Shown: in pieces, positions 17,868-58,368 of the stretch | Position numbering within the stretch: position 1 is the stretch's first letter | Layout: each line of letters starts with the position of its first letter | From: Pseudarthrobacter sp. ATCC 49987 | GTDB taxonomy: Bacteria > Actinomycetota > Actinomycetes > Actinomycetales > Micrococcaceae | Length of the DNA stretch: 64,000 nucleotides | Assembly (NCBI RefSeq): GCF_009928425.1 | Contig: NZ_JAABNS010000001.1 | Location: 3,720,001 to 3,784,000 of the forward strand | Reading direction: 5' to 3' | Notes under the pieces: generated by a model | What the model was told of the DNA's origin: nothing | Seen by the model: only the letters and a program-made list of their open reading frames with translations | Databases searched by the model: none | Translations under genes and position numbers: made by a program

Positions 17868-18998
17868 TTGATTTGTGGTCGTGCGCTGGTTCGGAACGGA
17901 AAAACGGCGGCTGGCAAGCAGCGGTACCGGTGTCTGGAATGCGGGGCGAGCCGCTCGGGTGAACGCCCGGATGTGAGCCGGCGCGCGGAGCTGGACGCCT
18001 TTCTGGGCTGGTTGTTGGGCGCCGGCAGCCAGGCAGGGGCTGTCTCGTTCGGCACGGCCCGGTCGTTCCGGCGCCGCACGGCATGGTGCTGGAATATTTC
18101 CCCGGCGATACCGGCCACTGGCGAGGTCCATGATCAGGTCCAGATCGACGGGATCTACGTCGGGTCGTGGTGCTGTCTGATCGCGATCGCCGGAGAGCAC
18201 GTGATCGGCTGGCAGTGGTGCGACACCGAGAAAAAGGCTGCCTGGGCTGCCCTGCTTCAACGGTTCCCCGCGCCGCGCGTGGTGATCACCGACGGTGGTT
18301 CCGGGATCGCGGCCGCATTGTCTGACTGCTGGTCCGATAGCGCCGTGCAGCGCTGCCTCGTCCACGTCCAACGCAACGTGCGCACCCACTTGACCAGCCG
18401 GCCCAGGACCGAGGCAGGAAAAGCCCTCCTGCGCCTTGGCCGGGCACTGACACGGATCCGCACCTCGGCGCAGGCCGCGGCGTGGCTGGGCCACCTCAAC
18501 GACTGGTACCAGGACTACGGGGACCTGGTCCGGGCCCGGACCTACCGCGGCACCACCACCCCGGCGCCGGCCTGGGTGCGGGCGAATCAGACCTGGTGGT
18601 TCACCCACGACAGGCTCCGCAAGGCCTACCGCCTCCTGGAACGAATCAGCCAGGCAGGGACGCTGTTCACCTACCTCCGCCACGAGTTCATCGGACTCGA
18701 CATCGCCGCCACGACCAACCGGATCGAAGGCGGCACGAACGCCCAGCTTCGCCTGATCCTGCGGGCCCACCGCGGGATGAGCGAGGAGCACCAGAAACCG
18801 GCCATCGAGTGGTATCTGTACCTGCATAGCGAAACCCCGGTCCCGCCCGCCCGGCTCATCCGCCCGGAGCACCAAACGCCCATACGCCTACCGGCTCAGA
18901 CCGCCCCCGACCAACCCCACGGACCCGAGGAATACGGCAAAGCAGCCACCGCAGAAGAAGGCCTCTGGGCCCGCAAAGGATGGGCAGGACGACCCTGA
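17868..18998 (+). CDS. IS1249-family DDE transposase
   Basis: From a TTG at 17868 the product is 376 residues. An N-terminal zinc ribbon (cysteine pair extended upstream by the TGT at 17865, then YRCLECG) precedes the catalytic core. The acidic triad is visible: Asp94 in QIDGIYVG, Asp142 in VVITDGGSG and Glu287 in TNRIEGGTNAQL, matching IS1249/IS256-type transposases. The frame is open from 17835 but has no ATG or GTG there. Since the first ribbon cysteine lies before the TTG, initiation may use CTG 17859 or another weak codon, which would keep expression low. The frame is uninterrupted. Confidence 0.88.
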   Translation: MICGRALVRNGKTAAGKQRYRCLECGASRSGERPDVSRRAELDAFLGWLLGAGSQAGAVSFGTARSFRRRTAWCWNISPAIPATGEVHDQVQIDGIYVGSWCCLIAIAGEHVIGWQWCDTEKKAAWAALLQRFPAPRVVITDGGSGIAAALSDCWSDSAVQRCLVHVQRNVRTHLTSRPRTEAGKALLRLGRALTRIRTSAQAAAWLGHLNDWYQDYGDLVRARTYRGTTTPAPAWVRANQTWWFTHDRLRKAYRLLERISQAGTLFTYLRHEFIGLDIAATTNRIEGGTNAQLRLILRAHRGMSEEHQKPAIEWYLYLHSETPVPPARLIRPEHQTPIRLPAQTAPDQPHGPEEYGKAATAEEGLWARKGWAGRP

Positions 18999-29940: not shown

Positions 29941-30207
29941 GGGTGCCTTGCTGAACCAATCGTTGAATCAGTGAACCGGTGAATTGTGCCATCCAGGGAA
30001 AAAGGAACTGAACCATCCTGCAGCTGCAGCACGTGCGTTCTCCTCCCGGACGTTCGCGGCGGACACCGCTGTGGCGCCAACTACAGCTAGAATTGGCTCC
30101 GAACAAGAACTTCGACATGACCAAGAGCGCGCTGACCGCCGGTGTATTCCTCCTTGCAGGATATCAAGCCAGGGTCCCGCTCCTGTTCCAGCAGCCCAGG
30201 AGGATCC

Positions 30208-30462
30208 GTGCCCGAGTCAAAGCGCCGCAAACGCACCACCCCCGCAACGCCGCAGACTGCCGCGGCGCAGGCCAACAAGCCCAACCCGGTCTGGTTCAAG
30301 CCCGTGATGTTCGGCCTGATGATCCTCGGCCTCCTGTGGATCATCACCTTCTATATCAGCGAAGGCACCCTTCCTGTCGCCGCCTGGGGATCCGGGAACA
30401 TCATCGCCGGCTTCGGCATCGCCATCGTCGGTTTCCTCATGACCACCCGCTGGCGCTCCTGA
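30208..30462 (+). CDS. crgA: CrgA: cell division regulator membrane protein
   Basis: An 84-residue protein begins at GTG 30208, preceded by AGGAGG at 4 nt. It has a basic N-terminus (ESKRRKRTTP), the KPNPVWFKPVMFGLMI block leading into the first transmembrane helix (~34-52), a short outer loop, and a second helix (~63-80), ending TTRWRS. This is the layout of CrgA, which in Streptomyces and mycobacteria modulates FtsZ-ring and septal PBP assembly. Location near pknB/pabA is the usual one. A strong terminator follows. Confidence 0.92.
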   Translation: MPESKRRKRTTPATPQTAAAQANKPNPVWFKPVMFGLMILGLLWIITFYISEGTLPVAAWGSGNIIAGFGIAIVGFLMTTRWRS

Positions 30463-30513: not shown

Positions 30514-30583
30514 CGTTAACCTCGAGGCCTACCAAAGGCCGATAATGCTGGAGCGGAGAAACACTGCGAGCGAAGGAGCCCGG

Positions 30584-31189
30584 ATGACCCCGACAGTAAC
30601 AGGCCCGGTGATCGGCGACGACGGCCTGGCCCGGCCCCAGTGGGCGGCCGTGGATCCGTTGCTGCGCGAGTACTACGACACCGAATGGGGATTTCCGGTA
30701 CGCGACGAACAGGGCCTCTACGAGCGCATCAGCCTTGAGGGTTTCCAGGCCGGGCTGTCCTGGGCCACGATTCTCCGGAAACGGCCGGCGTTCCGGACCG
30801 CCTTCCACAATTTCCATCCCGAGACGGTGGCAGCATTCACCGAAGCCGACGTTGAGCGGCTCCTCCTCGACGCCGGGATTGTCCGTAACCGACTGAAGAT
30901 CCGTGCCGCCATCACCAACGCCCAGGCCACCATTGCGCTACGGGCCGACGGCGGACTGGTTGACTTCGTCTGGGCGTTCCAGCCGGATTCCACACCCGAG
31001 CCGGCGTCCCACGAGGACATCCCTACCACCTCGGCAGAGTCCATCGCCCTGTCCAAGGCACTGCGGAAGCGGGGGTTCGCTTTCGTCGGGCCCACCACCA
31101 TGTACGCCCTGATGGAAGCAATCGGCATGATCGACACCCACCTGCTGGACAGCCACCGCAGGGGAACCTCCGGCATCTGGCCGCGCTGA
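30584..31189 (+). CDS. tag: DNA-3-methyladenine glycosylase I
   Basis: The ATG at 30584 has AAGGAG at 6 nt, preferred over the in-frame ATG at 30545. The 201-residue protein fits the Tag family: RPQWAAVDPLLREYYDTEWG, the catalytic-glutamate region LYERISLEGFQAGLSW, ILRKRPAFRTAF, and the late FVGPTTMYALMEAIGMI with the zinc-site histidine in DTHLLDSHRRG. It excises 3-methyladenine from alkylated DNA. It is followed by a 1-kb region without genes that holds the DnaA-box array. Confidence 0.92.
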   Translation: MTPTVTGPVIGDDGLARPQWAAVDPLLREYYDTEWGFPVRDEQGLYERISLEGFQAGLSWATILRKRPAFRTAFHNFHPETVAAFTEADVERLLLDAGIVRNRLKIRAAITNAQATIALRADGGLVDFVWAFQPDSTPEPASHEDIPTTSAESIALSKALRKRGFAFVGPTTMYALMEAIGMIDTHLLDSHRRGTSGIWPR

Positions 31190-31220: not shown

Positions 31221-31884
31221 TTATCCACAGTGTGGATAACTGTGTTCGAGATTCCCTCTGATCCTCCAATTCCCGCGCGCTGTGGCCCTCAGGAACTCCT
31301 GCCGGAAGGAATTCCGCGGGGAGTCACAGGCATGTGAGTTATTAACAGTGTGGATTGCCTGTGGATAACTCCAAAGCTGCAGCAACCGCTTTTGGGAACC
31401 GGGACCGCGGGGCCTTCTTACCCTCACCTTTCCAGGTTCAGCACGCCGCGACAGGGTTATCCACTTAACAACAGGCCAGTACCCACAACTTATCCACAGC
31501 TGGGGATAACGTGCTCATCAGAACGGTCTTCGGGGGTCCCTGGCGCCACGTGGCGCCAATTCCGGCCTCGTCACTTCGAGGGACAAGTTATTAACACTGT
31601 GAATAACCCTGTTGAAAGCAGATCTAAGCCCGGAGCTTCGTCTTCTGAGGGAGGCTCCCAGCCGCACCGCCGTGACGGCCTCCAGTGCCACGCCACCTTA
31701 CTCCGGGCGTTCCAGGCCGGAGTTGTCCACTTAACCACAGGGCAGCCCACAGGAGTTATCCACAAATGTGGAGATCTCGAAGTGCAAATCGGCAGAATTG
31801 CCCACTGTGGCCCTCAGATCCCGGACCGCGTGTTGAACTACAGGCGTGTAAGTTACCAACAGTGTGGATAACCCCTGTGGACAA
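31221..31884. other. DnaA-box array built from head-to-head box pairs
   Basis: Six perfect TTATCCACA boxes occur at 31221(+), 31231(-), 31360(-), 31490(+), 31756(+) and 31863(-), plus one TTGTCCACA type at 31876(-). At least nine one- or two-mismatch boxes lie between. Most are arranged as inverted pairs with 1-nt gaps (31221-31239, 31339-31357, 31588-31606, 31853-31871) or 2-nt gaps (31490-31509, 31756-31775). The first pair, TTATCCACAGTGTGGATAA, is a perfect palindrome. Random occurrence is not credible in GC-rich DNA. DnaA binding is inferred from the established 9-mer consensus. Confidence 0.85.
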
Positions 31885-32185: not shown

Positions 32186-33055
32186 TTAGGCGCTGGCAAC
32201 CCGGAGGGCCGAGACGGCGATGAGGAGCGCCAGCACCAAGACCAGGCCGCCCGCTTGCAGCAGGCCCTGCCGCTGGCCGCGGGGCGTGTACGCAACGACG
32301 GCGGCACACAGGGCACCAGTGACGGCACCACCCAGGTGGGCCTGCCAGGCAATTCCGGGGACCACGAAGCCGATGACGCCGTTAATAAGGATGAGCACCC
32401 AGAGTTGCCTCGTGTCACCACCGCGGCGGCGCTGGACCACCAGCATGGCTCCAAAGAGGCCGAAGATGGCGCCAGAAGCGCCCACAACGCCACTGGGCGG
32501 CAGGACAGGTGTCAACAGGAGGTAGCCGACGGATCCGCCGACGGCGGAGAGCAGGAAGATCGCCAGGAAGCGGATTCTTCCGAGGAGGGGCTCCAGTGCC
32601 TGTCCAAACACCCACAGCATGTACATGTTGAGCACGATATGGAGGATGAAGCCTTGTGAGTGGACAAACGCTGAGGTCAGCATGCGCCAAGGTTCGAAAT
32701 AGCCGTACTGGGGAGCGGCGTACACAGATGCAAAGGCCAGGTTATCCTCGACAACCTGCCCGGGGACCAGCCACTGGAGAACAAAGACCAGGACGCAGAG
32801 CCCGATGAGGGACAGGGTGACCACGGGCTTACCGGCGGTCACGGCGCCGCCGTAGACGGTCCTGACGTCCGGCGTCGTACGTTTTGTTTCGTTAACACAG
32901 TCAACGCATTGGAATCCGACGGCGGCCGCCCGCTGGCAGTCGGGGCACGCAGGGCGCCCGCACCGCTGGCAGCGCACATAGGCGGGCCGGTCCGGGTGCC
33001 GGGGGCACACCGGGATCTGCGCGGACGGCTCTGCCGCCGGAATTCCGTAGCTCAT
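32186..33055 (-). CDS. Rhomboid intramembrane serine protease with N-terminal zinc ribbon
   Basis: Residues ~15-55 carry a cysteine-rich B-box-like ribbon (CPRHPDRPAYVRCQRCGRPA, then CPDC and CVDC). Residues ~78-285 form a six-helix rhomboid domain with the catalytic GASG at Ser194 (VVGASGAIFG), His240 in WQAHLGGAVTG, and the HIVLNMYMLW segment. Rhomboids cleave transmembrane substrates inside the bilayer; the substrate is unknown. The gene is 8 nt after the cyclophilin gene on the same strand, so the two are probably co-transcribed, a pairing common in actinobacteria. Confidence 0.92.
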   Translation of the reverse strand: MSYGIPAAEPSAQIPVCPRHPDRPAYVRCQRCGRPACPDCQRAAAVGFQCVDCVNETKRTTPDVRTVYGGAVTAGKPVVTLSLIGLCVLVFVLQWLVPGQVVEDNLAFASVYAAPQYGYFEPWRMLTSAFVHSQGFILHIVLNMYMLWVFGQALEPLLGRIRFLAIFLLSAVGGSVGYLLLTPVLPPSGVVGASGAIFGLFGAMLVVQRRRGGDTRQLWVLILINGVIGFVVPGIAWQAHLGGAVTGALCAAVVAYTPRGQRQGLLQAGGLVLVLALLIAVSALRVASA

Positions 33056-33063
33056 GCGGTGGG

Positions 33064-33609
33064 CTAGAGCTTCACTACATCAATGCTCTTGATGACGACG
33101 TCCTCGACCGGACGGTCGCCCATTCCGGTGCGGACACCCTCGATGGAGTCGACAACCTTCCTGGACTCGTCGTCGGCTACCTCACCGAAGATGCTGTGCT
33201 TGCCCTGCAGCCAGCCGGTGGGGATGGTGGTGATGAAGAACTGTGAGCCGTTGGTGCCGCGGCCCATCTGGATGCCGGCGTTTGCCATGGCCAGCTTGTA
33301 GGGCTCGTTGAAGGTCAGCTCCGGGTGGATCTCGTCGTCGAATTTGTAACCCGGTCCGCCAACGCCACGGCCCAGGGGGTCGCCCGCCTGGATCATGAAG
33401 TCCTTGATGATGCGGTGGAAGATGGTGCCGTCATACAGCGGCGTCCCCGTCTTGTCCTCGCCCGATTCCGGGTGGGTCCAGGCCTTCTCGCCCGTCGCCA
33501 GTCCGACGAAATTCTCGACGGTCTTGGGAGCGTGGTTACCGAAGAGGTTGACGACAATGTCGCCCATGCTCGTGTGGATGGTTGCTTTTGCAGTTGCGAT
33601 GGCAGTCAT
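33064..33609 (-). CDS. ppiA: Cyclophilin-type peptidyl-prolyl cis-trans isomerase
   Basis: The start at 33609 (MTAIATAKATIHTSMGDIVV) is chosen over the in-frame ATG at 33636 because it matches the usual N-terminus. The 181-residue protein contains the cyclophilin core: YDGTIFHRIIKDFMIQAGDP with the catalytic arginine, FDDEIHPEL, LAMANAG and GTNGSQFFITTIPTGWLQGK with a loop leading to HSIFGEV. No signal peptide is present, so it folds cytoplasmic proteins. It lies first in a two-gene unit with the rhomboid gene. Confidence 0.93.
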   Translation of the reverse strand: MTAIATAKATIHTSMGDIVVNLFGNHAPKTVENFVGLATGEKAWTHPESGEDKTGTPLYDGTIFHRIIKDFMIQAGDPLGRGVGGPGYKFDDEIHPELTFNEPYKLAMANAGIQMGRGTNGSQFFITTIPTGWLQGKHSIFGEVADDESRKVVDSIEGVRTGMGDRPVEDVVIKSIDVVKL

Positions 33610-33764
33610 AGGCCCTATTCTTCCATGACAGGCCATTACACATAGGGCCGCTCCGCTAGTTCCGCGCTGGGTGAAATCGGCCCGGAATCGGCCTGAAGAA
33701 TAGCCCGTGAGGTCTGGGACACGTAGGCTAACTGCAGAACCGTCACATTAATCGGGAGGTAGTT

Positions 33765-46537: not shown

Positions 46538-47662
46538 TTAGTTGGGCAGCCGGACCGGCATGACCAGGTAGCGGTAGTCGCCCTGGTCCTCGCCGTCGGC
46601 GTCGTGCTGAGCCGTGATCATGGCCGGCTTGGGCGCGCTCGTGAAGGAGAACCGGACAAACTTGGTTTCGATGACGCTCAGGCCTTCGATCAGGTAGTGA
46701 GGGTTGAACGCGACGGTGATGTCTTCGCCGGTGAGCTGGGCTTCGAGCTCTTCGGAGGCCTGCGCATCTTCGCCGGTGCCGGCGTCGAGGTGCAGCTGGC
46801 CCTGGGTGAAAGCGAGCCGGACCGGGGTGTTGCGTTCTGCCACGAGCGAGACGCGGCGCACGGCCTCGACAAGTTCCGATGTCTGCACAGTCGCGTGGAT
46901 GGGCGTGGACTCGGGGAACAGTGAGCGGATCTTGGGGTAGTCGCCATCAACCAGGAGTGACGTCGTCGTGCGTCCGCCGCTCTCAAATCCGATGAGCCGG
47001 CTGTCGTCATCGGCAAGGGCGAGGTTGATGTCGCCGCTGCCGCCAAGGGTCTTGGCTACTTCGTTGAGGGTCTTGGCCTTGACCAGGGCGCTGGTTGAGA
47101 TGCCCGGGGTGACGGGCTTCCACGGGAGTTCGCGCATCGCCAGGCGGTAGCGGTCGGTGGCCAGCAGCGTGATGAGGTCGTCCTCGATCTCCATTCGGAC
47201 GCCGGTGAGGATCGGCAGGGTGTCGTCCTTGCTTGCCGCGATGATCACCTGGGAGACAGCCTGGGCAAAGGAGTCGCCCGGGACCGTGCCGCTGATCGGG
47301 GGCAGTGCTGGCAGGGGCGGGTATTCGGCTTCCGGCATGGTGGCCAGGTGGAAGCTGCTTCGGCGGCAGGTGAGGGTGACTTTGTTGCCGTCGGTTTCGA
47401 TGTCGACCGGTGCGGACGGAAGGCTGCGGCAGATGTCGGCAAGCAGGCGTCCTGAGACCAGGATGGTGCCTTCGGTCGTGATGTCAGCTGCGATTTCAAG
47501 CCTCGCTGACGTTTCGTAATCGAAGCTCGACAGGCTGACCGTACCGGCTTCAGCCTTGAGAAGCAGGCCTGAAAGTACGGGTACCGGCGGCCGCGGAGAC
47601 AACGACCGGGCGGTCCAGGTCACGGCTTCTGCCAGGACGTCCCGTTCGACTCTGAACTTCAC
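46538..47662 (-). CDS. dnaN: DNA polymerase III beta sliding clamp
   Basis: GTG 47662 (VKFRVERDVLAEAVTW) gives 374 residues, the expected clamp length; the in-frame start 93 nt upstream is rejected. Three repeated clamp domains are seen, with LSGLLLKAEAGTVSLSSFDY in the first, ITLLATDRYRLAMRELPW in the second and the C-terminal DYRYLVMPVRLPN. It encircles DNA and tethers polymerase III. It lies between the oriC spacer and gnd, transcribed away from dnaA. Confidence 0.96.
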   Translation of the reverse strand: MKFRVERDVLAEAVTWTARSLSPRPPVPVLSGLLLKAEAGTVSLSSFDYETSARLEIAADITTEGTILVSGRLLADICRSLPSAPVDIETDGNKVTLTCRRSSFHLATMPEAEYPPLPALPPISGTVPGDSFAQAVSQVIIAASKDDTLPILTGVRMEIEDDLITLLATDRYRLAMRELPWKPVTPGISTSALVKAKTLNEVAKTLGGSGDINLALADDDSRLIGFESGGRTTTSLLVDGDYPKIRSLFPESTPIHATVQTSELVEAVRRVSLVAERNTPVRLAFTQGQLHLDAGTGEDAQASEELEAQLTGEDITVAFNPHYLIEGLSVIETKFVRFSFTSAPKPAMITAQHDADGEDQGDYRYLVMPVRLPN

Positions 47663-48184
47663 GGAAGGGTGCCGCCTTTCATTGCTGCTGTCATCGCTGG
47701 TGGCCGGGCCACCGGCCCGGCTGGGAATCACAAAAGATGTCCAGGACGGACACACTGCAGACAGCTTAGCCGCAAGAAGTGTGATTCTCCCATCCCCGGG
47801 TTACATCCGTGTGGTTCGCTCCGCCCGGTCCCGGTGCCGGTTTCCGGCCAGGGCCGGGAGGGTCCTTGGCGGTGTGCGGCGTCCGGAGCGAAGTTGTTAT
47901 TTGAGGGAATTTCATTTTCTAGGGATTAGTAGTGTTAATAACTGCTGTGGATACTGTGGATAACCCTGTTTGGCGGTGCGATTCCGGGGTTAAGCCCTGT
48001 TCATGGACTGTGGGTGGAGCAGGTTTTAAACAGGGTGTGGATGGGGATAACATTTTTTTCCGATCCGCTGATCCACAGACGCCTTAAGGGTTTTAAGCCC
48101 ATTAACCGCGGTTGTCCCCTTAACTATCCACAGGCTTGTCCACAGGAGCCTGTTAATAAGGTAAGAGTGCGCGGTGCGGACTGC
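47663..48184. other. dnaA-dnaN intergenic region, probable oriC
   Basis: The 522-nt spacer contains consensus DnaA boxes TGTGGATAA at 47955-47963(-) and TTGTCCACA at 48136-48144(+), and one- or two-mismatch boxes at about 47946, 48036, 48042, 48069 and 48124. An A/T-rich stretch at about 47892-47945 (TTGTTATTTGAGGG through GTTAATAAC) and a T-run at 48053-48059 are candidate unwinding sites. Position next to dnaA is the usual actinobacterial oriC. It also carries the dnaN promoter. Confidence 0.75.
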
Positions 48185-49606
48185 CTAGGAATTGCGCTGC
48201 TGCTGCTTGATCCGGTTGGTCAGCTCGGTCACCTGGTTGTAGATCACCCGGCGCTCGGCCATCAGTTCGCGGATCTTGCGGTCCGCGTGGATGACCGTGG
48301 TGTGGTCGCGGCCGCCGAGCTCCTGGCCGATCTTGGGAAGGGACATGTCCGTGAGCTCACGGCACAGGTACATGGCGATCTGCCGGGCTGTCACCAATGT
48401 CCTGGTCCGCGACTTGCTGCAAAGCTCCTCCATGCTGAGCTTGAAGTAGTCGGCAGTCTGGGTCAGGATCTGCGCGGAGGTGATCTCCTGGGCCCCGTCA
48501 TCGGTGATGAGGTCCTTGAGCACCATCTCGGCCAGGGCAACGTCGACCGGCTGGCGGTTCAGGCTGGCGAAGGCCGTGACGCGGATCAGTGCCCCCTCGA
48601 GTTCGCGGATGTTGCTCGAGATCTTCGAAGCGATGTACTCCAGGGCATCGTCCGGGGCGGAGAGGCCCTCGCTGAGGGCCTTCTTCCGGAGGATCGCGAT
48701 CCGGGTTTCGAGTTCCGGCGGCTGGATGTCGGTCAGCAGGCCCCATTCGAACCGCGACTTCATCCGGTCCTCGAAACCAGCGAGCAGCTTGGGCGGCTGG
48801 TCGGAGGTGATGACCACCTGCTTGTTGTTGTTGTGCAGGGCGTTGAACGTGTGGAAGAACTCCTCCAGCGTCCGGTCCTTGCCGGCCAGGAACTGGATGT
48901 CATCGATCAGCAGGACGTCCACGTTGCGGTAGGTCGTCTTGAAGCTGGTGCCTTCATCGTCGCGGATGGAGTTGATGAAGTCGTTGGTGAATTCCTCGGA
49001 GTTGACGTAGCGGACCCGGATCCCGCTGTAGAGCCGGCGGGCGTAGTGGCCGATCGCGTGGAGCAGGTGGGTTTTGCCCAGTCCGGAATCACCGTAGATG
49101 AAGAGGGGGTTGTAGGCCTTGGCCGGGGCTTCGGCGACGGCGACGGCCGCGGCGTGGGCGAAGCGGTTGGAAGAACCGATCACAAAGGTGTCGAACACAT
49201 ACTTTGGATTGAGCCGGCCGAATTCGTGGGAGGTGCTTGGCAGCATCGGCTGCGGCTTCAGTTCCACCGAGGGGTCGGCCACCAGGGACAGCTCGACGGC
49301 GGGTTCCGGCTCCGGGTGGAGCGGTACCAGATCGGTGTCGACGTCGATCGCGCAACGGATTTCGTCGGAGAAAACGTTCCGGAGGGCGTCGTCGAGGGCT
49401 TCCTTCACCTGCGTCTGGAGCACCTCGCGGGTGAGCTCGTTGGGCACGGCGACCAGAAGGGTGGAACCGATGAGGCCCTGGGCCTGGGCGAGGATGACGA
49501 AGCCACGCTGCCGGGGTGTCACACGGTGGTCATTCTCCAGCAGGCTCACTACCCGCCGCCAGGAACTTCCGACAGTGTTGGCTTGGTTGGCTTCGTCTAC
49601 TGTCAT
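48185..49606 (-). CDS. dnaA: Chromosomal replication initiator DnaA
   Basis: ATG 49606 (MTVDEANQANTVGSSWRRVV) with AGGAAC upstream gives 473 residues. Domain I is at ~1-85, a short acidic domain II follows, and the AAA+ domain (~130-350) has KYVFDTFVIGSSNRFAHAAA, Walker A GDSGLGKTHLL, and Walker B LLIDDIQFLAGK. Domain IV (~375-473) has the DNA-binding signature GGRDHTTVIHADRKI that contacts DnaA boxes. DnaA-ATP opens oriC. Candidate boxes flank the gene on both sides, so autoregulation is likely. Confidence 0.97.
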   Translation of the reverse strand: MTVDEANQANTVGSSWRRVVSLLENDHRVTPRQRGFVILAQAQGLIGSTLLVAVPNELTREVLQTQVKEALDDALRNVFSDEIRCAIDVDTDLVPLHPEPEPAVELSLVADPSVELKPQPMLPSTSHEFGRLNPKYVFDTFVIGSSNRFAHAAAVAVAEAPAKAYNPLFIYGDSGLGKTHLLHAIGHYARRLYSGIRVRYVNSEEFTNDFINSIRDDEGTSFKTTYRNVDVLLIDDIQFLAGKDRTLEEFFHTFNALHNNNKQVVITSDQPPKLLAGFEDRMKSRFEWGLLTDIQPPELETRIAILRKKALSEGLSAPDDALEYIASKISSNIRELEGALIRVTAFASLNRQPVDVALAEMVLKDLITDDGAQEITSAQILTQTADYFKLSMEELCSKSRTRTLVTARQIAMYLCRELTDMSLPKIGQELGGRDHTTVIHADRKIRELMAERRVIYNQVTELTNRIKQQQRNS

Positions 49607-50069
49607 CAATCAGTTCCTCAAACTTGCTTGCCTGCATTACCTGCAGCCACAAGTCCCGAACCAGTGCGCTGGCCCCGGCTTAATCCACAGGGTTATGCAC
49701 AGTCCGTGGATAATCGGCTACTGGGACACTCTAGGCGATGAAAAGTCCAGAAGATAGCTGGGTTCTGTCCTGTGGATAATCACACTGGTGTAGTTCGAAA
49801 ACGGGGTGCGTGACACACTTCATCCACAGGCTGGGGCGGCGGTTAGCCACAGCTGGGGAAAGTCTGCGGCGCGACCCCCGGTTTGACTCCGGAGGGCAGC
49901 AAGCCCTAACGTTGTGAAGTCCCATGTGTACGCTTTTCGCCTCTTTTGTTTCTCTCCCGACGCCCTGCGTCTTGCGAGTCGAGGGAAGCGGCACATACAA
50001 AACTTAGCGTCGACCAGTTCTTCCCCTTGATCGGGTGGGCGCACCTTTGATCCCACTGGAGTAACTAAC
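49607..50069. other. dnaA-rpmH divergent intergenic region with DnaA boxes
   Basis: 463 nt with the dnaA and rpmH promoters. One consensus box TGTGGATAA lies at 49771-49779, with one-mismatch boxes at 49693 (TTATGCACA), 49706 (CGTGGATAA), 49820 (TCATCCACA) and 49853 (TTAGCCACA). These could extend oriC or let DnaA repress its own gene. No ORF is credible. Confidence 0.65.
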
Positions 50070-57956: not shown

Positions 57957-58368
57957 TGTGGATAACTTTGTGGATTACTCGGAGGTTGGGTGTGGGCATC
58001 GCACGTGGCGACGCTACTCCACGGGCGCCGAAGGAGAGCCCGCAATAGGGGTGCCTTCGGCTAGTTGGACGTGTTTCACGTGAAACATTCACAGGCCCCG
58101 AACCGTGACCTCATTCACGTCCTGCTGTGCTTCAAAAATCCCCCACTGAAGGTTAATTTTCTGCGGTATTCCGCACTTTGCCGTGTGCAGTTTCGCTGTG
58201 ACTTTGCCCGGTCGTGAACGCGCATCGATGGGATCGGATGTGTCACGGCCGCTCGTTCGTCGACGAGATGGAAGCGACGGTTCGGCCCACTGGTAAGGGA
58301 CGGATGGTGAGATTGTGATCAAGGCCTCGCTGCCTGTGGATAACTGTGTGAATAAGTTCTGTGGAGAA
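57957..58368. other. DnaA-box group within the centromere region
   Basis: Consensus TGTGGATAA at 57957-57965 and 58335-58343, with one-mismatch TGTGGATTA at 57969, TGTGAATAA at 58347 and TGTGGAGAA at 58360. All are in the same orientation, spaced 12-13 nt within each group. parS site 5 lies between the two groups. Confidence 0.65.
58072..58087. other. parS site 5
   Basis: Perfect consensus TGTTTCACGTGAAACA. Confidence 0.93.

Follow-up and report, generated by a model that had tools for sequence, protein, structure and literature searches.

To our knowledge, how actinobacteria restrict the initiation of chromosome replication to once per cycle is poorly understood. In Escherichia coli, part of the answer lies in the datA and DARS loci. 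DnaA-box clusters outside oriC were reportedly described in Streptomyces coelicolor by Smulczyk-Krawczyszyn et al. in 2006 (J Bacteriol), under names that we take to be H24, D78 and H69, one of them presumably taken from a cosmid that possibly covers the locus discussed here, and Okumura et al. are said to have described DnaA-box clusters in Bacillus subtilis in 2012. According to the available parts of two sources, the E. coli DARS core comprises three boxes, with box I opposite boxes II and III, and datA lowers active DnaA (PMC8682772, PMC5742627). Reviews, likewise available in part, cite the clusters close to oriC in S. coelicolor and B. subtilis as repressing untimely initiation (PMC5742627, PMC4585315). 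DnaA-box clusters near oriC are known in Streptomyces, those of S. coelicolor being known to us via citing reviews; in the literature available to us, largely in part, we found no description of the synteny with the rhomboid and crgA genes or of the partner palindrome set out below, and no stated link between crgA and the DnaA box, though they are mentioned together.

The locus to be compared with these systems is a non-coding array of DnaA boxes at positions 31221-31884 of the window, the whole stretch of 64,000 nucleotides that was analysed. Its consensus boxes are clustered outside oriC, as in a titration cluster, and in this it resembles datA; it differs in that minimal datA consists of boxes 2, 3 and 7 with an IHF site, the two being set beside one another by description only, from partial sources. 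The likeness to DARS1 and DARS2 extends, in the available parts of their descriptions, to three boxes with I opposite II and III, an intergenic location and a position conserved among relatives, with partner-protein sites nearby in the case of DARS2. However, the gaps in the E. coli core, measured in NC_000913, are 5 and 3, whereas the actinobacterial ones are mostly 1-3 and 3-4; the two E. coli loci are far from oriC, and no such palindrome was seen in those parts of their descriptions. The S. coelicolor clusters are alike in lying close to oriC in an actinobacterium and in being cited as repressive, yet no conserved triplet, crgA link or palindrome was found in their descriptions as available, in part, through reviews. 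The B. subtilis clusters are likened by description only, from partial sources: they too are chromosomal and cited as restraining initiation, but belong to another phylum.

Three repeated units of DnaA boxes

The array lies between the convergent tag and rhomboid protease genes, and its surroundings are as follows:

crgA, 30142-30462, plus strand; the element adjoins its 3' side in other actinobacteria, and here tag intervenes
tag, 30545-31189, plus strand; left neighbour of the array, 3' end towards it
rhomboid protease gene, 32186-33055, minus strand; right neighbour of the array, 3' end towards it
ppi (cyclophilin gene), 33064-33636, minus strand; beyond the rhomboid gene
dnaN, 46538-47755, minus strand
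dnaA, 48185-49609, minus strand; about 16 kb from the array

As the original prediction held, the surroundings are free of genes from the end of tag (31189) to the start of the rhomboid gene (32186), and the array gave zero matches in an Rfam scan at gathering thresholds and in a tRNA scan. With the 3' ends of tag and the rhomboid gene converging on it, the array does not stand upstream of a gene, as a promoter-proximal DnaA site would, and a promoter role was rejected because the flanking genes are convergent.

A re-scan of the sequence recovered the six inverted pairs that had been predicted, with their gaps and coordinates, and the seven exact TTRTCCACA sites (six TTATCCACA, one TTGTCCACA), which lie at 31221, 31490 and 31756 on the plus strand and at 31231, 31360, 31863 and 31876 on the minus strand. 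The extra reverse boxes at 31360 and 31876 do follow after 2 nt and 4 nt; the first pair, announced as a perfect 19-nt palindrome, is a palindrome whose central base is unpaired. There are 12 exact sites in the window, seven of them within these 664 bp, against a mean of 0.41 and a largest value of 2 in 100 window shuffles. The 4.40-Mb genome contains 56 (26 for a reversed-pattern control), of which the array holds 7/56. Consensus boxes are also denser here than in the spacers flanking dnaA, as had been claimed, the dnaA-dnaN spacer having two exact sites and the region upstream of dnaA one.

Rather than standing as separate pairs, the boxes form three repeated units, each consisting of a B module, which ends in an inverted pair, followed by an A module of one forward and two reverse boxes:

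B1, 31221-31239, no strand: inverted pair TTATCCACA-g-TGTGGATAA, unit 1
P1 palindrome, 31321-31340, no strand: GAGTCACA-N4-TGTGAGTT, preceding A1
A1, 31339-31368, plus strand: weak forward box TTATTAACA, gap 1, reverse box TGTGGATTG, gap 2, exact reverse box
B2, 31457-31509, plus strand: forward boxes at 31457, 31465, 31479 and 31490, reverse box at 31501; last-pair gap 2
A2, 31588-31618, plus strand: forward box TTATTAACA, gap 1, reverse box TGTGAATAA; third, reverse site weak and partly conserved
B3, 31723-31775, plus strand: forward boxes at 31723, 31731 and 31756; weak reverse half at 31767
P3 palindrome, 31835-31854, no strand: GAACTACA-N4-TGTAAGTT, overlapping box I of A3
A3, 31853-31884, plus strand: forward box TTACCAACA, gap 1, exact reverse box TTATCCACA, gap 4, exact reverse box TTGTCCACA; an inverted pair plus tandem box

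Measured from the start of the B pair, the A module begins at 118, 98 and 97 bp in units 1, 2 and 3 respectively. The B modules of units 2 and 3 consist of forward boxes within 33 bp and a final inverted pair whose boxes stand 2 nt apart; that of unit 1 retains chiefly its inverted pair, with the boxes 1 nt apart. Each A module runs from a weak forward box across a 1-nt gap to a reverse box, and after 2-4 nt to a second reverse box, which is weak in unit 2. The weak boxes within pairs carry two mismatches each (TTATTAACA at 31339 and 31588, TTACCAACA at 31853). The original prediction did not include the further forward boxes, with one or two mismatches each, at 31457, 31465, 31479, 31723 and 31731. 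It also left out the two palindromes (31321 and 31835) and the three-unit repeat itself.

The original prediction had also offered the array as the second part of a bipartite origin or as the true initiation site, and both its greater number of exact boxes than either dnaA spacer and a minimum of cumulative skew at 30-40 kb of the window would suit such a role. We consider this very improbable. Firstly, the array has no AT-rich element of the kind that belongs to an oriC, its lowest 50-bp GC being 0.38 against 0.28 in the dnaA-dnaN spacer. Secondly, third-position skew fails to separate leading from lagging genes here: over 464 kb of this genome they differ little, with opposite sign on each arm, and the low in window skew may therefore merely follow gene orientation. 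Thirdly, in relatives the element stays with ppi and crgA, 8 to 175 kb from dnaA. The array as true origin was thus rejected because it is without the AT-rich stretch of the dnaA-dnaN spacer, which itself likely contains oriC:

candidate unwinding stretch and likely oriC, 47891-47963, no strand: 50 bp at 28% GC from 47891, adjoining DnaA boxes at 47946 and 47955

In Kocuria rhizophila, according to the available part of the source, the predicted oriC is in the dnaA-dnaN spacer, with an AT-rich stretch next to the boxes (PMC12500396), and the Streptomyces albus origin is described, in a source likewise available in part, as flanked by dnaA and dnaN (PMC3937824).

Other features were recorded in passing. 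A third DnaA-box cluster lies downstream of parB at 57957-58368 of the window, with reverse boxes at 57957, 57969, 58335, 58347 and 58360 flanking what we take to be a parS-like palindrome at 58072-58087. An isolated inverted pair, TTGTCCACA-gcg-TGTGGACAA, stands far from the origin at 1351202-1351222 of the genome (L001), and an open reading frame at 17868-18998 of the window has weak matches to Mutator/MULE transposases.

Conservation of the array and its triplet core

Examination of relatives, suggested as a check on the array, bore it out: array DNA was matched in 36/36 same-genus genomes, at least one B-A unit is present in 37/37, and a related triplet occurs across the class. The array lies between tag and the rhomboid gene in 32 same-genus genomes, which are all those where both genes were found (of the 36 fetched loci, 33 yielded tag, 34 dnaA, and 32 tag and rhomboid together). 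In 34/36 loci dnaA shares the array's stretch, which is no longer than 20 kb; the other two run into contig ends. There are three B-A units in 25 of the 37 genus genomes (this one included), two in 10 and one in 2, in a count where A sites were found by a loose pattern and some B pairs were listed as A. Over 97 genus units the B-to-A distance spans 95-125 bp, and in 67/70 of units 2 and 3 it is 96-101 bp. Across the genus TTATTAACA hardly varies in A1 and A2, and the positions conserved beyond the boxes are those of the palindrome GAACTACA-N4-TGTAAGTT, found at a fixed offset in 35/35 genomes scored for A3 (again including this one), 21/35 for A2 and 3/25 for A1. Array DNA searched against 22 other-family genomes gave two weak matches (E 2e-4 and 5e-4), treated as chance.

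A slightly broader version of the A3 motif reached, among the matches listed, Arthrobacter, Pseudarthrobacter, Paenarthrobacter, Glutamicibacter, Sinomonas, Kocuria, Zhihengliuella, Brevibacterium and Gordonia. All 12 of the loci inspected (at most 8 kb each) had at least one of ppi, rhomboid, trpG and tag, those from Gordonia having two to four boxes only. Box clusters adjoin the ppi-rhomboid pair in 8/10 genomes drawn from other genera of the family and from family f6, which is Brevibacterium-like by motif; in the two g24 genomes among these ten, ppi-rhomboid was not found near the box clusters.

Across the class, 148 genomes were searched, 142 had a ppi match, and 60 loci of up to 20 kb were picked across families, of which 58 were used and two dropped as too short. 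The triplet sought, an inverted pair plus a tandem DnaA box, is a shape chosen after seeing the array, with the controls of box order and permutation coming later. With at most five mismatches and a tandem gap of 1-5 it occurs in 51/58 loci, and in 51/51 of these the best triplet is solely within the interval from rhomboid/ppi to trpG/pknB, against a mean of 6.5 and a largest value of 18 in 20,000 runs of a simulation. At any score, and with gaps of 0-5, the best triplet is inside this interval in 55/58 loci (60 permuted consensuses: mean 5.2, maximum 20); seven of the 58 exceed five mismatches, three of them with 9-10. Mean best mismatch for the favoured box order is 3.71 inside the interval and 8.45 outside it. 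For each of the remaining three orders, too, the best triplet is inside, in 48, 48 and 49 of 58 loci, because the interval is box-rich, and preference for the favoured order therefore rests on mismatch counts, those of the other orders being 6.2-6.7 inside.

The gaps of these triplets (inverted, then tandem) are 1 and 4 in 22/46 good examples and 2 and 3 in 11/46, together 33/46, with 26 triplets on the plus and 20 on the minus strand. The box order of DARS is present in A1, A3 and the class triplets (the third box of A2 being weak), but its spacing is not: the window has gaps of 1/2, 1/3 and 1/4, and 5/3 was found in 0/46 good class triplets. As its gaps differ, the locus is not classed as a DARS.

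Where crgA was found, 49/50 good triplets lie between rhomboid/ppi and crgA, at a median of 90 bp from the crgA match and in 44 of the 49 at no more than 160 bp; the crgA 3' end points towards the triplet in 54/55 class loci with crgA. ppi and dnaA are about 8 to 175 kb apart in the 24 class genomes with both on one contig (two further rows were set aside, one for a span across the contig start and one for a second ppi copy), and closeness to the origin is therefore loose.

A palindrome shared with the dnaA region

Near the class triplets a second motif recurs, with the consensus GAATTACA-N4-TGTAATTC. A simple rule detects it in 29/51 good-triplet loci and fails in 22/51, including all from families f33, f34 and f35, some having degenerate versions. 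The palindrome is fused to a box in 22/58 class loci, always within the rhomboid/ppi-to-trpG/pknB interval. Boxes beside crgA are kept in three f35 loci where the rule failed (L281, L283, L284), and the latter two have an exact forward box shortly ahead of the triplet.

Two of the window's four best palindrome matches are in the array, one is upstream of dnaA and one in the dnaA-dnaN spacer, in a ranking whose weights were set by the analyst from palindromes near class triplets:

fused exact DnaA box (49771) and palindrome, 49771-49796, plus strand: upstream of dnaA
weaker palindrome copy, 47798-47817, no strand: dnaA-dnaN spacer; a similar one, by a simple rule, in 6/33 relatives

The fused motif stands 166-174 nt from the dnaA match in 17/17 same-genus loci with enough upstream sequence, two short stretches (160 and 167 bp) ending before its position. 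The fused pattern is present in 59/61 genus genomes, against none for its reverse; its position at dnaA is established only where it was checked, and the count is partly non-independent as 17/61 genomes had been seen earlier. The palindrome is also upstream of dnaA, without the fused box, in two of four other genera of the family, and was not seen there in the other two.

In whole genomes of the class, with at most one mismatch, the fused pattern occurs in 37/148 against 2/148 for the reversed pattern, a count that is not independent because some of the instances on which the pattern was based belong to the sample. Of these matches 27 are downstream of ppi, two upstream of dnaA, two at crgA on other contigs, and six elsewhere or unplaced (G358, G372, G386, G398, G448, G432), although the match in G432, at 1,192,946 of a contig of about 1.2 Mb starting with dnaA, may be upstream of dnaA. 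Four of the six belong to one family, f27 (G358, G372, G386, G398), with matches on contigs that have neither crgA nor a found dnaA; this family may offer an alternative home for the fused element. In the rest of the phylum, where the count is independent, the pattern was found in 13/144 genomes against 0 for its reverse. Nine of the 13 matches are within 111 bp of a crgA match, crgA positions being taken from genomes with fused-pattern matches only, and the other four are at neither crgA nor dnaA; G532 and G562 each carry a second match at another place.

Allowing two mismatches, this genome has 14 palindrome places against five for the reversed control, five of the 14 being copies of one sequence. 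One, with a single mismatch, is close upstream of a gene resembling nrdR, with an NrdR zinc ribbon and an ATP cone (L320, 2156001-2156020), and another, with two, is upstream of an open reading frame with a WhiB domain (L324, 2627482-2627501). For the identity of the putative palindrome-binding protein, here called X, operators of the BlaI/MecI/CopY type were considered; their half-site resembles that of the palindrome, but they are spaced differently.

The association with the 3' end of crgA, seen in the class and in 9/13 other motif-bearing genomes, and the convergent gene arrangement could alternatively be explained by a DnaA-dependent block to transcription, or a terminator, at that end, acting on the neighbouring genes. 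This explanation is improbable: tag separates crgA from the array in the genus, yet the array there is larger rather than lost, and the palindrome also stands upstream of dnaA.

Proposed replication control by DnaA and a putative partner

The sequence, geometry, conservation and position of the element, and the motif it shares with dnaA, are matters of direct observation. With its clustered boxes, its simpler form elsewhere and that shared palindrome, it looks like a site for the control of chromosome replication. A titration or reactivation locus, as the original prediction had suggested, is still the kind of explanation that suits the array best, and the conservation lends it further weight; the bipartite and true-origin roles proposed with it are not supported, the AT-rich stretch being in the dnaA-dnaN spacer. 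We infer DnaA binding, the existence of X and the direction of the effect. In the available part of one study, E. coli DnaA favours box pairs 2 or 3 bp apart in vivo (PMC11317965), a preference that fits DnaA binding at the array.

The core of the proposed element would be the triplet, one box facing a tandem pair, often adjoining or fused to a palindrome for X. This core is kept in most of the class loci examined and occurs in some other classes of the phylum, and in Arthrobacter-type bacteria it has expanded to as many as three B-A units. DnaA would bind head-to-head on the inverted pairs, its assembly or release being influenced by X, which would touch the same bases as DnaA and, in the genus, would have a site fused to the box upstream of dnaA.

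Such an arrangement could serve reactivation, as at DARS: ADP-DnaA on an inverted pair would lose its ADP, be released and reload ATP, and the locus would promote initiation, with X in the role of Fis/IHF at E. coli DARS2. The order and orientation of the boxes equal those of the E. coli DARS core, among the possible orders this one gives the lowest mismatch counts in the class, and the tandem gap is 3-4 in most triplets, close to the 3 of DARS. Nevertheless this is unlikely, if less so than the roles at the origin or in transcription: the inverted gap is mostly 1-3 nt rather than 5, there are many extra boxes, and DARS1 and DARS2, in the available parts of the sources, lie between oriC and terC, whereas the array is about 16 kb from dnaA.

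Instead, we think it reasonably probable that the array is a non-coding DnaA-regulatory locus near the origin, with a DARS-like order at another spacing, that probably exerts early negative feedback. The locus would be duplicated soon after initiation, most likely doubling DnaA-binding capacity and thereby restraining re-initiation. Negative feedback through titration or inactivation is favoured over reactivation because the locus is copied early and an actinobacterial cluster is cited as repressive, although the box order resembles that of a reactivating site, which would promote initiation.

We also propose, tentatively and with slightly less than even confidence, that many lineages of Actinomycetota share an element fixed at crgA that is read jointly by DnaA and X, with X also sitting upstream of dnaA in the Arthrobacter group. 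If this is true, X would regulate the initiation of replication throughout the lineage, and Arthrobacter would represent the amplification of the element into a three-unit array. Being conserved and syntenic, with its box geometry defined and a partner motif beside it, the element provides an exact target, and a handle on a possible regulator of initiation.
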